Origin: Alphaproteobacteria bacterium
GTDB lineage: Bacteria > Pseudomonadota > Alphaproteobacteria > Bin95
NCBI GenBank assembly: GCA_022822125.1
Contig: JAJECF010000006.1
Span: 1-15,979, forward strand
Length of the DNA: 15,979 bases
Direction of reading: 5' to 3'
Shown here: in pieces, positions 10,775 to 14,307 of the stretch
Layout of the letters: each line of letters opens with the position of its first letter
Numbering within the stretch: position 1 is the first letter of the stretch
The notes under the pieces: generated by a model
What the model saw: only the letters and a program-made list of their open reading frames with translations
Databases searched by the model: none
Told to the model about the DNA's origin: nothing
Translations under genes and position numbers: made by a program

Positions 10775-11662
10775 GTGAACGCTCTTTCGACGGGGCCGTG
10801 GCGAAGTTTCCTGTTCGCCCCGGCCAACCATGCGCGCATGGCGGAGAAGGTGTTCCAGGCCGGCGCCGACGCGGCGATCCTCGACCTTGAAGACGCGGTC
10901 GCGGTCGCGGAGAAGCCGGCCGCCCGCGCCCATGCCGTCGCCGCCCTCGAGCGGCCGCGGCCCTGCAAGGGCTTCGTGCGCGTCAACGCCGCCGAGACCG
11001 AGTGGTGCTTCGGGGACCTGGAAGCGATCGTCGGGCCGTGGCTCGACGGCGTCGTGCTGCCGAAGCTCGAAAGCGCGGCCATGCTCCGGACGATCGACTG
11101 GACGCTCGTCCAGCTCGAGCGAAAGGCCGGGCTGGAGCCGGGCAGCATCGATCTCATGCCTATCGTCGAGACCGGCCTCGGCATTTCCAACCTGAAGGAG
11201 ATCGCCGCCTGCCGCTCGCGGCTTCGCCGGCTCTGCTTCGGGGCCGGCGACTATACGCTCGATGTGGGGATGCGCTGGTCTCTGGACGAAGCGGAACTGG
11301 CGCATGCGCGCGCGGCGATGGTGGTGGAGTCGCGCGCGGGCGGGCTGGAGCCGCCGGTCGATACGGTGTTCATCGAACTGCGCGAGACGGAGGCCTTCGC
11401 CGCCTCGGCCCGGCGTGCGCTGGCGCTCGGCTTCCAGGGCAAGCTCTGCATCCACCCCAGCCAGGTGGGGCCGGTCAACGAGGCCTTCTCGCCAACAGAC
11501 GAAGAGGTCGAACACGCGCAGCGCATTGTCTCGGCTTTCGACAAAGCCGAGGCCGCCGGCTCCGCCTCCATCCAGGTGGACGGGTATTTCGTCGATTACC
11601 CCATAGTGGAAAAGGCCCGCCGCACGCTGGCCCTGGCGCAGCGCATCGCGAGGCAGGGCTGA
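10775..11662 (+). CDS. HpcH/HpaI-family CoA-ester lyase (CitE/malyl-CoA lyase-like)
   Basis: This 295-residue TIM-barrel protein is of the citrate-lyase-beta group, which cleaves or forms 3-hydroxyacyl-CoA esters such as malyl-, methylmalyl- or citramalyl-CoA with Mg2+. Landmarks are RSFLFAPANHARMAEKV (10-26), AAILDLEDAVAVAEK (33-47), FVRVNA (67-72) with the substrate Arg, IVETGLGISN with Glu132, FGAGDYTLDVG with Asp159 (the two expected Mg ligands), and GKLCIHPSQV near the C-terminus. The length matches stand-alone CitE-like lyases. No citrate lyase alpha or gamma genes adjoin it, so a citrate lyase complex is unlikely. The start is GTG at 10775 with GAGG upstream, nine bases after the SDR stop. 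The 3' end meets the PIN gene tail to tail, seven bases apart. Confidence 0.9.
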   Translation: MNALSTGPWRSFLFAPANHARMAEKVFQAGADAAILDLEDAVAVAEKPAARAHAVAALERPRPCKGFVRVNAAETEWCFGDLEAIVGPWLDGVVLPKLESAAMLRTIDWTLVQLERKAGLEPGSIDLMPIVETGLGISNLKEIAACRSRLRRLCFGAGDYTLDVGMRWSLDEAELAHARAAMVVESRAGGLEPPVDTVFIELRETEAFAASARRALALGFQGKLCIHPSQVGPVNEAFSPTDEEVEHAQRIVSAFDKAEAAGSASIQVDGYFVDYPIVEKARRTLALAQRIARQG

Positions 11663-11669
11663 GGGCAGG

Positions 11670-12104
11670 CTACCTGCCTCGCCCGCCGGCGCAGGCGTCC
11701 TGCGTCAGAAGGCCGGCGTCCCGATGGTCCCGGTAAATCGCCCCGCCGATGAGTTGCCTATCCCTGAAATCGCGCCGAAGCCTCTGGTCCCTCGTGTACA
11801 GGAGTCGGACGCCAGCCGCGCGGGAGAGCGCGAGGACATGCTGGTCGTTCGAGCGGATATTTTCGAATTCGGCCTCGTGCGGTTCGACCCGCTCCCAGGG
11901 GATCAGCTTCGCCCTGCCGGCGCGGACAAGCCCGGCAAGCCGATTCCGGTTCCGCGCGTCTATGTCGGTTACGAAATCGCCCCCCGTCGAATAGACAATG
12001 CTGCCCCAGCCGCGCTGCAACCATTCATGGATCGGAGCGGTGTCCGGATTTTTCGGTTGCAGCAGGAACATGCCGAGCACATTGGCATCGACAATCATGC
12101 ACAT
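11670..12104 (-). CDS. PIN-domain nuclease paired with the AAA ATPase
   Basis: This 144-residue protein opens MCMIVDANVLG, with the first PIN acid at D6. The other likely metal ligands are D43 or D47 (GGDFVTDID), D87 (SNDQHVLAL) and D106 (LLYTRDQRL), followed by DFRDRQLIGGAIYRDH. The pattern matches small PIN proteins that open MCxIVDAN and carry an 'SDDPHVLALA...GARLLYTxD..L..DF' C-terminal half. PIN domains are Mg-dependent ribonucleases, as in VapC toxins. No VapB-like antitoxin ORF is visible. Instead the gene starts 11 bases after the ATPase stop on the same strand, with AGGGGCGG as ribosome-binding site. The gene is GC-rich (44 of 60 bases in 11881-11940), unlike the ATPase core. The annotation VapC-like toxin is possible, but an effector of the ATPase fits the context better. 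Confidence 0.82.
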   Translation of the reverse strand: MCMIVDANVLGMFLLQPKNPDTAPIHEWLQRGWGSIVYSTGGDFVTDIDARNRNRLAGLVRAGRAKLIPWERVEPHEAEFENIRSNDQHVLALSRAAGVRLLYTRDQRLRRDFRDRQLIGGAIYRDHRDAGLLTQDACAGGRGR

Positions 12105-12115
12105 ATGGCCCGCCC

Positions 12116-13447
12116 CTAATCTTCGAAACCCAGCAAGCGGTCCGATTCCCTCAGGAAGAAATCCCGGTATCCGGGCGGCACATTCTTCAGATTACCGTCG
12201 CCATCGACCTCGATATTGTGAATACGGACGGCGTTTTCCTCCGGCTCGAAATAGAGAATCGACACGTCCTCCGCCGGAAGTTTCCCCTGCCGCACTAGAA
12301 TCCGTATCCGGTCCACAATATGGTCGCTATGCGTTTCGATCATAAAACTGTTGCCGTTCTCTTGGACCGAATTGGAAAATACTGTCGCTAACTCCGCCTG
12401 AGCGCGCGGGTGTAGATGCACTTCCGGCTGCTGCAGCAGGAAAATTGAGTCCGTGTGGCTGTGGATATCAACAAGAATTGGCAAGCTCTGGCTAACACCG
12501 TATCCGACATCCATAATGTTAGCGGGAATTCGCGAACGCGCCTTGACTTGTAACTGGAAAGGGTCGCTCATCTGCTTTCCAAGTCGCCTCACATTAATAT
12601 CAGAAAACATGCCGGAATGCTTTCCAAAAGCGGCCAGATTATCGTGTAGAGGTCGCCATTTCCCTTCTTCTGTCCGATTGAGACGCATCATTAACATCGG
12701 AATGTGACTTCCATCGGGCGAGGAAGTTTCTTGCACTGGGTCATATGTGCGTTTAGGTTTGGAACGCAAAGGCGCTAAGAGGATAAGGTTAGGTAGATAT
12801 GGCATTAGAAATTTAAATAGATCTGAATTCTTATCCATCATTTTGGGAATCATAAATAACTCGGATATGTATTCTAGAACTTTCTTGTCAACTGGGTCTT
12901 GTGCTTGATTTATGAGTGGAAATTGGATCTTGTGATCCAATTGAAACAGTGCAAAGCCCCAATTTCGGTTGGGACTCTTGATTTCTATGGTATTGCATGG
13001 TGTCCTTATCAAAAATATATCTTCCTCATTGCGACTCACATCAAAGTATGATAACGAGTCGAATTCATAGCGTATATTCGAGATATTAGGTTGGGAAGCG
13101 CCTTCGGAAAAAGTAATTTTTATTAAGAAAGGTGGTATGTTGCTACCTTCCTTTTTCTTTACCCATAAGCCAATCTCAAATTTGTCAATTCGTCCCAATC
13201 TACCCCTTCTAGATCGAACTATGTCACTGAACGAACCCATGGAGAACGGTTCTTGATTGAAATCGGGTCCAAATTCATGAAACCGATATCTGTCAAACAA
13301 CCGGTGCATTACGCTATAGCAGCCTAGGAAAGTTGTCTTGCCGGTGCTATTTTCTCCCACCAGAAGAGTAATAGGGCGCAGTCGAGCGCTTTGACTATCC
13401 TGAAAGCAACGCACGTCGGTCAGCAGGAATTCTCTGGGTAAATCCAT
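12116..13447 (-). CDS. ABC/SMC-type AAA ATPase with DUF3696-like C-terminus, candidate defence ATPase
   Basis: This 443-residue P-loop ATPase is of the AAA_15/AAA_21 class. Visible elements are Walker A GENSTGKT (31-38), an APLRSKPKRTYDP segment (225-237), the ABC-like signature VGYGVSQS (314-321), Walker B IFLLQQPEVHLHP (335-347) and the H-loop ETHSDH (371-376). The end, EVDGDGNLKNVPPGY, resembles the short DUF3696 tail. Such ATPases work as dimers and are often coupled to nuclease partners. The ATG at 13447 is chosen because the product then begins just before the family motif; a longer frame from 13540 would overlap the crotonase gene. The middle of the gene is very AT-rich (18 of 60 GC in 12781-12840) while both ends are 50-60%. 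The gene is followed by the PIN nuclease. The function is unproven. Confidence 0.88.
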   Translation of the reverse strand: MDLPREFLLTDVRCFQDSQSARLRPITLLVGENSTGKTTFLGCYSVMHRLFDRYRFHEFGPDFNQEPFSMGSFSDIVRSRRGRLGRIDKFEIGLWVKKKEGSNIPPFLIKITFSEGASQPNISNIRYEFDSLSYFDVSRNEEDIFLIRTPCNTIEIKSPNRNWGFALFQLDHKIQFPLINQAQDPVDKKVLEYISELFMIPKMMDKNSDLFKFLMPYLPNLILLAPLRSKPKRTYDPVQETSSPDGSHIPMLMMRLNRTEEGKWRPLHDNLAAFGKHSGMFSDINVRRLGKQMSDPFQLQVKARSRIPANIMDVGYGVSQSLPILVDIHSHTDSIFLLQQPEVHLHPRAQAELATVFSNSVQENGNSFMIETHSDHIVDRIRILVRQGKLPAEDVSILYFEPEENAVRIHNIEVDGDGNLKNVPPGYRDFFLRESDRLLGFED

Positions 13448-13521
13448 TTGTTCATTCCGCGCCAGTTTTCGACGATATATAGCACAATTCTTGACTGTCG
13501 GCTTCCCGCCGTTAGTCGGCG
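13448..13521 (-). promoter_or_regulatory. Leader and possible promoter of the ATPase-PIN pair
   Basis: These 74 bases separate the crotonase stop from the ATPase start. They are AT-rich around an ATATATA block (13475-13481), which could supply a -10 box on the minus strand; a weak CCGACA lies about 16 bases upstream. A five-base-pair hairpin CGCCG-TTAGT-CGGCG (13507-13521) abuts the crotonase stop but lacks a T-tract. GGAA lies about 8 bases before the ATG. This is consistent with, but does not prove, separate transcription from the hydantoinase operon. Confidence 0.3.
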
Positions 13522-14307
13522 CTATCCTCCTCCGGCCCACGGAGGCGGACGCTTCTCGTTGAAGGCCTCTATGCCGGCGCGGGCGGCGGGGGTTCGGAGG
13601 AGGGCGGCTATGGTGCGGGCTGCGTCGTCGAGGGTTTCGTCCACCGGGCGGTCGGAGGCGGAGATGACAAGGCGTTTCGCTTCCGCGACCGCGTTCGGCT
13701 CAGAGCGGCGGACCTGGTCCAGAACCTCCGTCAGAGCTGCATCCGCTTCCTCCCGCCCGGCGGCGAGGATATGGGCGAGTCCGTCGGCGAAGGCCCGGCG
13801 TCCGTCCAGAATCGCGCCGGTCACGACCAGCCGCCGGGTCCAGCCCTCGCCCATGCGTCGAACGATGTGGGGAATGACCTGCGCCGGGATGAAGCCGGCG
13901 CGCGCTTCCGGCAGGCCGATCTTCGCGTCCTCGCGCATGATGACGACATCCGAGCAGCAGACCATGCCGAGGCCGCCGCCCGTGCAGGCGCCCTCGACCA
14001 CGGCGATGACCGCCTGGGGCAAGGCGTTCAGCCGCTCCAGCACATGGCCCATCTTGCGATAGACGGGGACGAGCGGGTCCGGGTCCGCCGCCGGCGGGAT
14101 ATCTCCCAGCATCGCCATGTCGCCGCCGGCCGAGAACTGCCCGCCCTCCCCGCGCAGCACGACCGCGCGGGCGTCCGACGCTTCGGCTTCCCGAAACGCG
14201 GCCAGCAGCGCCTCCATCGTCTCCTGGGTGAGCGCGTTGCGGCGCCCGGGCCGCGTCAGCAGGACATGAAGCGCGAGCCCGCGGCGCTCGACCCGGACCG
14301 GGCTCAC
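13522..14307 (-). CDS. Enoyl-CoA hydratase/isomerase (crotonase) family protein
   Basis: This 261-residue crotonase binds acyl-CoA and stabilises an enolate through an oxyanion hole formed by the SAGGDMAM (59-66) and GACTGGGLGM (106-115) loops. One catalytic glutamate is present (E134 in GLPEARAGFIPA). The position of the other glutamate of classical hydratases is Gly114 (GGGLG instead of GGGCE), so ordinary enoyl-CoA hydration by the two-Glu mechanism is doubtful. The EARAGFIPAQVIPHI segment resembles hydratases of the isohexenylglutaconyl- or methylglutaconyl-CoA type. The start is GTG at 14307, overlapping the hyuB stop as GTGA, so translation is coupled. It is the last gene of the hydantoinase-like operon. 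The exact reaction is not assigned. Confidence 0.88.
   Translation of the reverse strand: MSPVRVERRGLALHVLLTRPGRRNALTQETMEALLAAFREAEASDARAVVLRGEGGQFSAGGDMAMLGDIPPAADPDPLVPVYRKMGHVLERLNALPQAVIAVVEGACTGGGLGMVCCSDVVIMREDAKIGLPEARAGFIPAQVIPHIVRRMGEGWTRRLVVTGAILDGRRAFADGLAHILAAGREEADAALTEVLDQVRRSEPNAVAEAKRLVISASDRPVDETLDDAARTIAALLRTPAARAGIEAFNEKRPPPWAGGG

Follow-up and report, generated by a model that had tools for sequence, protein, structure and literature searches.

A mobile ATPase–PIN gene cassette with a degenerate Walker B motif and a likely role in phage defence

Introduction

In PARIS, AriB is kept sequestered by AriA, which lets it go when a phage protein binds as trigger (PMC12409363). 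Menshen carries a DUF262 gene with a predicted OLD nuclease (PMC10952713). PIN domains have also been found in defence. A recent screen validated the PIN-containing systems DS-3 and DS-5, and in the section that describes them neither has an ABC ATPase (PMC13092281). We found no earlier description of this ATPase–PIN pair in the literature listings searched; the main survey of ABC ATPases (PMC7544218) may cover such pairs.

Here we analysed a stretch of 15,979 nucleotides (the window) from an alphaproteobacterial contig, JAJECF010000006.1, in which an ATPase gene is followed by a small PIN-domain gene. An initial annotation of this DNA had read the two as a candidate defence cassette in which the ATPase might keep the nuclease inactive until a trigger. 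That interpretation is supported in part, and the description behind it is confirmed in part: both genes stand, and the Walker B, which had been taken as intact, is degenerate. A defence role for the pair is likely. With moderate confidence, we read it as a mobile two-gene cassette, probably directed against phage, in which an SMC/OLD-type ATP-binding protein would hold a VapC-like PIN ribonuclease until infection.

Results

The pair lies among metabolic genes, as the initial annotation had noted, with a lyase (PF03328) on one side and an enoyl-CoA hydratase (PF00378) on the other:

10775..11662, plus strand, flanking HpcH/HpaI aldolase/citrate-lyase gene (PF03328, 3e-47)
11663..13521, no strand, inserted cassette between the stop codons of two convergent genes, where five empty sites have 6 bp (alignment with L217, L219, L220, L221 and L223)
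11670..12104, minus strand, PIN-domain gene, 144 aa, predicted ribonuclease effector (ORF; model pLDDT 92.8; VapC-like PIN fold)
12105..12115, no strand, 11-bp gap from the ATPase to the PIN gene (sequence)
12116..13447, minus strand, ABC/OLD-like ATPase gene, 443 aa, predicted sensor/restrainer (ORF; AAA_15 3.6e-17; AAA_21 1e-15; model pLDDT 90.9; fold like SMC heads and PtuA)
13522..14307, minus strand, flanking enoyl-CoA hydratase gene (PF00378, 1.4e-34)

Both reading frames are present with exactly the coordinates first given, and the 11 bases said to separate them are confirmed in the sequence. The claim that no antitoxin is visible also holds: neither the ORF list nor the sequence has a small VapB-like gene beside the window PIN, which is adjoined by the ATPase gene 11 bp upstream and by the end of the lyase gene 7 bp downstream.

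To place the cassette among relatives, 14 genomes of the order of G001 were compared, in the closest members of which the surrounding genes are conserved. At L217, L219, L220, L221 and L223 the lyase and hydratase genes stand tail to tail with 6 bp between their stop codons and without the pair, while in the window and at L001 this junction is occupied by the pair, giving two filled sites versus five empty ones. Both flanks are not in view at L218, L222 and L224, and the distant L225-L229 match the lyase alone. The last hydratase codons differ between filled and empty sites. A second polymorphic site was found in Poribacteria, beside the gene of a predicted thiamine-diphosphate enzyme, whose identity we judged from the sequence of that neighbour. 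Among 30 loci examined there (47 genomes match), a PIN lies on that side in 22, close by in 17 and 0.5-1.1 kb off in five, with the ATPase in view in 20 of the 22. Five of the 30 have no PIN despite 1497 bp of room, one of them in a genome (G762) with a PIN on another contig, and three have too little sequence. The pair is accessory, present or absent at otherwise matching loci, and the mobile-cassette behaviour that had been proposed is borne out by these empty sites. A housekeeping gene pair is ruled out by the matching loci without it at the window site and the Poribacteria site.

The two filled sites carry divergent alleles. Eight flanking proteins are 89-98% identical between the window and L001, and seven of these have a dS of 0.18-0.43. 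The PIN is 71.5% identical with a dS of 0.63, and the ATPase is 62.7% identical with a dS of about 2.0, near saturation. Because the ATPase dS is near saturation against a low flank dS, the window and L001 cassettes are not simple vertical copies; either an allele was replaced or there were two arrivals at one site. Elsewhere in the window, positions 880-1000 show by eye a repeated motif in translation (RLRTGS, RQAQDKPFD) that resembles an intergenic repeat element, and give short blastn matches to L001.

We then asked how constant the pairing is. We used the ATPase alignment to scan genome contigs, which gave 384 relatives; the best 80 of these, with two from viral contigs, make up 82 loci, and 80 of the 82 have a PIN gene or remnant 3' of the ATPase. 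By a cut-off that takes an ORF or piece starting -120 to +300 bp 3' of the ATPase, 79 of 82 pass; L038, where the PIN ORF was called from an upstream start, is the 80th. The two exceptions are L028, where the contig stops 392 bp beyond the ATPase, and L025, with another gene in the PIN's place. A stricter requirement, that 85% or more of the PIN profile be covered, still leaves 70 of the 80 bacterial loci. At L025:9373-10797 an intact ATPase of the window's clade is followed by a 474-aa protein that has no Pfam match and is a possible alternative effector.

Searching from the PIN side gave matches in 4/251 Chloroflexota, 2/398 Pseudomonadota, 51/84 Poribacteria and 4/199 Acidobacteriota genomes, counts that include weak and partial matches, the centre genome and some genomes known already, and that are lower bounds as rates, since the larger runs scored only 9 to 19 candidates per genome; the phyla are those in the database records of the centre genomes. 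A PIN or fragment is thus recorded in far more of the Poribacteria genomes than in those of the other phyla sampled. We examined 44 PIN-seeded loci, namely those new among the search loci plus ten further regions, and the ATPase lies next to the PIN in 42. Seven of the 44 are also in the ATPase-first set, and 35 of the other 37 carry the ATPase. The two loci without it, L125 and L156, are both weak PIN matches, and L156 is at a contig edge. The 80 bacterial loci span 16 phyla as labelled in database records, with at least eight changes needed for Pseudomonadota on the starred branches of a quick ATPase tree. The ATPase and PIN travel together as a recurrent operon, and their adjacency, far from being unique to one genome, recurs in unrelated bacteria. 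No fused ATPase–PIN protein was found at E<=0.01 among 2077 candidates; for huge phages, a passage in the literature mentions fused ATPase–PIN proteins with their type unstated (PMC8297831). Divergence of the two proteins is correlated (r 0.82 over 76 pairs, with 0/2000 permutations as high), and for only 44 of the 76 does the closest relative by PIN also rank in the top three by ATPase. We set this co-divergence aside as evidence, since common descent alone yields such a correlation.

Neighbouring genes tie the pair to no fixed housekeeping pathway. Clustering of neighbours at the 82 loci recovered the ATPase in 81 and the PIN in 72, and no other family in more than 10. Restriction genes recur among the neighbours, as do widespread families of transport and metabolic genes, and part of the recurrence is synteny within lineages (Poribacteria, Caldilineaceae). 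At L029, L038, L044, L049 and L066 the pair is surrounded by type III-like Mod/Res genes (DNA methylase and/or ResIII); tblastn with four Mod/Res-locus proteins found relatives in just those five of 126 loci, a count that covers only relatives of the four probes and includes 44 PIN-seeded loci, mostly about 3.4 kb, with little context. A second copy in G019, L121, adjoins an Eco57I-type gene and lies near an AAA_21 plus DUF4276-like pair, its DUF4276 match being below the cut-off, and L120 (G027) has AAA_21 and DUF4276-like neighbours too. On a viral contig (L082), the pair is next to a gp3-like packaging protein (PF16677), with a terminase match below cut-off. Viral contigs gave only two distant loci, both from the ATPase scan, and none in the PIN-seeded scan; named phage or plasmid records had no match to the pair at E<=1e-30 or at 1e-20. 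The hand-picked neighbourhoods point to defence. Proximity to defence genes is a property of some hand-picked loci, with Mod/Res genes at a minority (5/126) and a metabolic neighbourhood in the window itself.

One locus, L049:2704-9681, is a compact defence island in which the pair is followed by a ResIII/TnsA-like gene and then by SMODS nucleotidyltransferase and patatin genes, which have the look of CBASS.

The distribution in Poribacteria weighs partly against defence, as the pair is common there (51/84), often near one gene (22/30), and looks partly vertical. A common and partly syntenic pair would suit a regulatory ribonuclease module with no defence function, such as a stress or cell-cycle switch. 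There is a parallel in Cran1, an archaeal OLD-family ATPase with a reported cell-cycle role (PMC12796447). Presence/absence polymorphism, patchy spread over 16 phyla and near-saturated allelic divergence argue against such a module, and we consider it quite improbable.

The motifs of the ATPase are placed as follows:

13334..13357, minus strand, Walker A GENSTGKT, ATPase residues 31-38 (K37 in 82/82 rows with the residue)
12818..13177, minus strand, hypervariable ATPase part, residues 91-210, candidate sensor region (low identity in 83 ATPases and in window versus L001)
12485..12508, minus strand, ABC signature VGYGVSQS, residues 314-321 (G315, G317 and Q320 in 83/83 rows)
12428..12433, minus strand, degenerate Walker B, Q339-Q340 replacing both acids (QQ in 83/83 and in 42/42 PIN-seeded loci)
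12329..12331, minus strand, H-loop His373 (83/83 rows)

The Walker A, ABC signature and H-loop that had been claimed are all kept. The Walker B had been called intact, which is wrong: Gln-Gln stands in every aligned ATPase. In an alignment with solved structures, QQ lies opposite E-E of the OLD protein 6p74 and D-E, D-Q or A-E in the PtuA chains shown, and related clades found with the NsnB model have ENPE, DSPE, EEPE or EQPE versus QQPE in the window's clade. The ATPase-first set is biased for QQ, as one of its two scan patterns contained it; the PIN-seeded loci were chosen without that pattern, and QQ is found in 42/42 of them, 35 new to the ATPase-first set. Of the features of a hydrolysing ABC ATPase, the Walker A lysine and the H-loop are there and the Walker B acid pair is absent. 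Because these acids are Gln-Gln in all copies examined, ATP hydrolysis by this protein is doubtful, and we predict its loss. Glu342, also invariant in the ATPases, could in principle stand in for the missing acids.

The modelled fold resembles SMC heads, Rad50, and the PtuA of Septu and retron-Eco7 by structure comparison, and a Pfam-type domain search of the 443-aa ATPase gave no Toprim match. Residues 91-210 have a mean pairwise identity of 15-26% versus 38-63% elsewhere in 83 ATPases, and are also the peak of divergence between the window and L001, at 7-33% identity. The GC content of residues 76-215 in the window is 36%. Low GC was not upheld as a general mark of the hypervariable part: GC there is lower than in the context at 79/83 loci, but of the 26 loci in GC-rich contexts only 14 show it lower than in the gene's own C-terminal part.

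VapC and other PIN proteins are known mostly for RNA cutting, and these are the nearest solved structures to the model of the window PIN. A PDB sequence search with the PIN gave no meaningful match, and Foldseek by itself reached a best E of only 1.5e-3. Its acidic residues, described as apparently intact, are largely kept:

12087..12089, minus strand, PIN catalytic-type Asp6 (76/76 rows with the residue)
11844..11846, minus strand, PIN catalytic-type Asp87 (74/79 rows with the residue)
11787..11789, minus strand, PIN catalytic-type Asp106 (79/79 rows with the residue)

Two cysteines near the ends of the protein, C2 (12099-12101) and C138 (11691-11693), are kept in 74/81 and 78/81 rows.

Related operons were found by surveying 200 genomes of G001's phylum with the NsnB model. 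Fifty-two genomes match; 30 of the matches came with a locus, and the 29 that remain once L001's own copy is set aside were analysed. In 12 of the 29 (L173-L184) a PIN-like protein of a different kind lies downstream of an ATPase with EEPE or EQPE, and nine of the 12 have an RNA ligase after that PIN, with PF09414 shown for two. Four of these PINs were scanned (L173, L175, L178 and L179) and match PADLOC HEC-03A at 1.9e-7 to 4.9e-52, and HEC-03B is the best match of the L173 and L179 ATPases. Neither the sister PIN nor the RNA ligase was found at any of the 82 loci of the window's own clade. The ligase in the sister operons hints at RNA as the substrate of the PIN that accompanies such ATPases. 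The L173-L184 operons are possibly a cut-and-repair immune system.

These results bear on whether the pair might act on DNA in the manner of Septu or Gabija, the SMC-like ATPase loading the PIN onto invading DNA. The likeness of the fold to PtuA, SMC heads and Rad50 is consistent with this, as are the restriction genes at some loci. However, the structures nearest to the PIN are mostly those of RNA cutters, the sister operons have an RNA ligase, and the Walker B acids for a hydrolysis-driven motor are missing. We consider action on DNA quite improbable.

Breakage of the two genes is unequal. Both genes are full length in 43 of the 51 Poribacteria genomes with a PIN. One genome has an insertion in the PIN (L273, inside one open ORF and so not counted as broken), and in two both genes are broken (L274, L278). 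In the remaining five only the PIN is broken and the ATPase is intact; the reverse case was not seen. The count omits another set of 38 loci, 23 of which lie in genomes chosen for their ATPase. With the PIN making up 148/578 profile positions, the chance of five PIN-only and zero ATPase-only breaks is ~0.001. The pattern is suggestive only; it would fit a PIN nuclease that does harm once the ATPase is gone, with draft-genome errors or relaxed selection on the second gene as alternatives. Outside Poribacteria, the PIN is likewise damaged (broken, split or reduced to a remnant) at L014, L024 and L126, where the ATPase is intact or nearly complete.

The loss of the PIN alone, and not of the ATPase alone, in Poribacteria would also fit a self-maintaining addiction module, the ATPase serving as antitoxin of the PIN toxin with no sensing of phage; the VapC-like fold and the accessory insertion would agree with it. 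The window PIN has no small VapB-like gene beside it, though, and a 443-aa partner with a hypervariable region suits a sensor better, as do placements with restriction or CBASS-like genes at some loci. We regard an addiction module as unlikely.

Discussion

The reading of the pair as a phage-triggered cassette can be put as a mechanism of restraint and release, which we propose by analogy with PARIS. The ATPase would bind ATP and split it slowly or not at all, and at rest it would therefore persist as an ATP-bound dimer with the PIN held in place. Recognition of the trigger by the hypervariable residues 91-210 would free the PIN, which would cleave RNA (tRNA, mRNA or rRNA) and thereby halt the infected cell.

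A more specific version is tentative. The protein may be a natural pseudo-ATPase, its QQ invariant in 16 phyla, which ATP clamps instead of driving it through hydrolysis and which releases the PIN; its sensor region may be swapped between alleles at a fixed site, and a sister branch may have added an RNA ligase that undoes or limits the cut. A natural family without Walker B acids makes gating of immune complexes by ATP binding alone testable. The empty and filled versions of the locus in close relatives, with alleles that differ mainly in residues 91-210, are ready-made comparisons.

As to known systems, the best PADLOC model for the window ATPase is NsnB, which we take to be the ATPase of Menshen (2.6e-44, residues 9-439). 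The 16 closest NsnB-like loci examined (L157-L172) have ENPE or DSPE, not QQPE, and 14 of the 16 have a downstream ORF of 248 to 325 aa, none with a PIN match. HEC-03, a PADLOC-DB 2.0.0 candidate made up of HEC-03A and HEC-03B, is like the window in having a same-clan ATPase followed by a PIN-like protein. The HEC-03B model matches the window ATPase at 2.8e-28 over residues 220-425, third after NsnB and PDC-M55A. HEC-03A, however, is unlike the window PIN: 0/72 members (the window and 71 relatives) match it at E<=0.01, and a profile comparison of the HEC-03-type and window PIN families gives a probability of 3%. HEC-03-type loci also differ in their Walker B (EEPE or EQPE versus QQPE) and in having an RNA ligase at 9/12 loci versus 0/82 in the window clade. 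Neither 'HEC' nor 'PDC' appears in the text of two PADLOC papers. No PADLOC model supplied a known PIN partner for the window clade; PDC-M11A matches 3/72, at best 6.2e-05. The view that the system is poorly described therefore holds as far as the libraries searched contain no named, characterised equivalent, with the proviso that the sister pair is the candidate HEC-03.

VapBC shares the PIN fold with its conserved acids and includes the nearest solved structures, but pairs it with a small antitoxin, whereas the partner of the window PIN is an ATPase. In Gabija, GajA is an ATPase fused to Toprim, unlike the window ATPase with its lack of a Toprim match. Septu and retron-Eco7 PtuAB have an HNH nuclease, PtuB, where the window has a PIN, and the PtuB model matches one of 72 PINs, only at 0.0064; the Walker B residues of their PtuA chains likewise differ from the window's QQ. 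PARIS resembles the window pair in combining an ABC ATPase sensor with a small RNA-cutting nuclease, and the AriA model matches the window ATPase at 5.6e-19, but its partner AriB is a Toprim protein and the neighbour here is a PIN. If our reading is true, a PIN ribonuclease would join the Toprim and HNH effectors known with OLD/SMC-type ATPase sensors.
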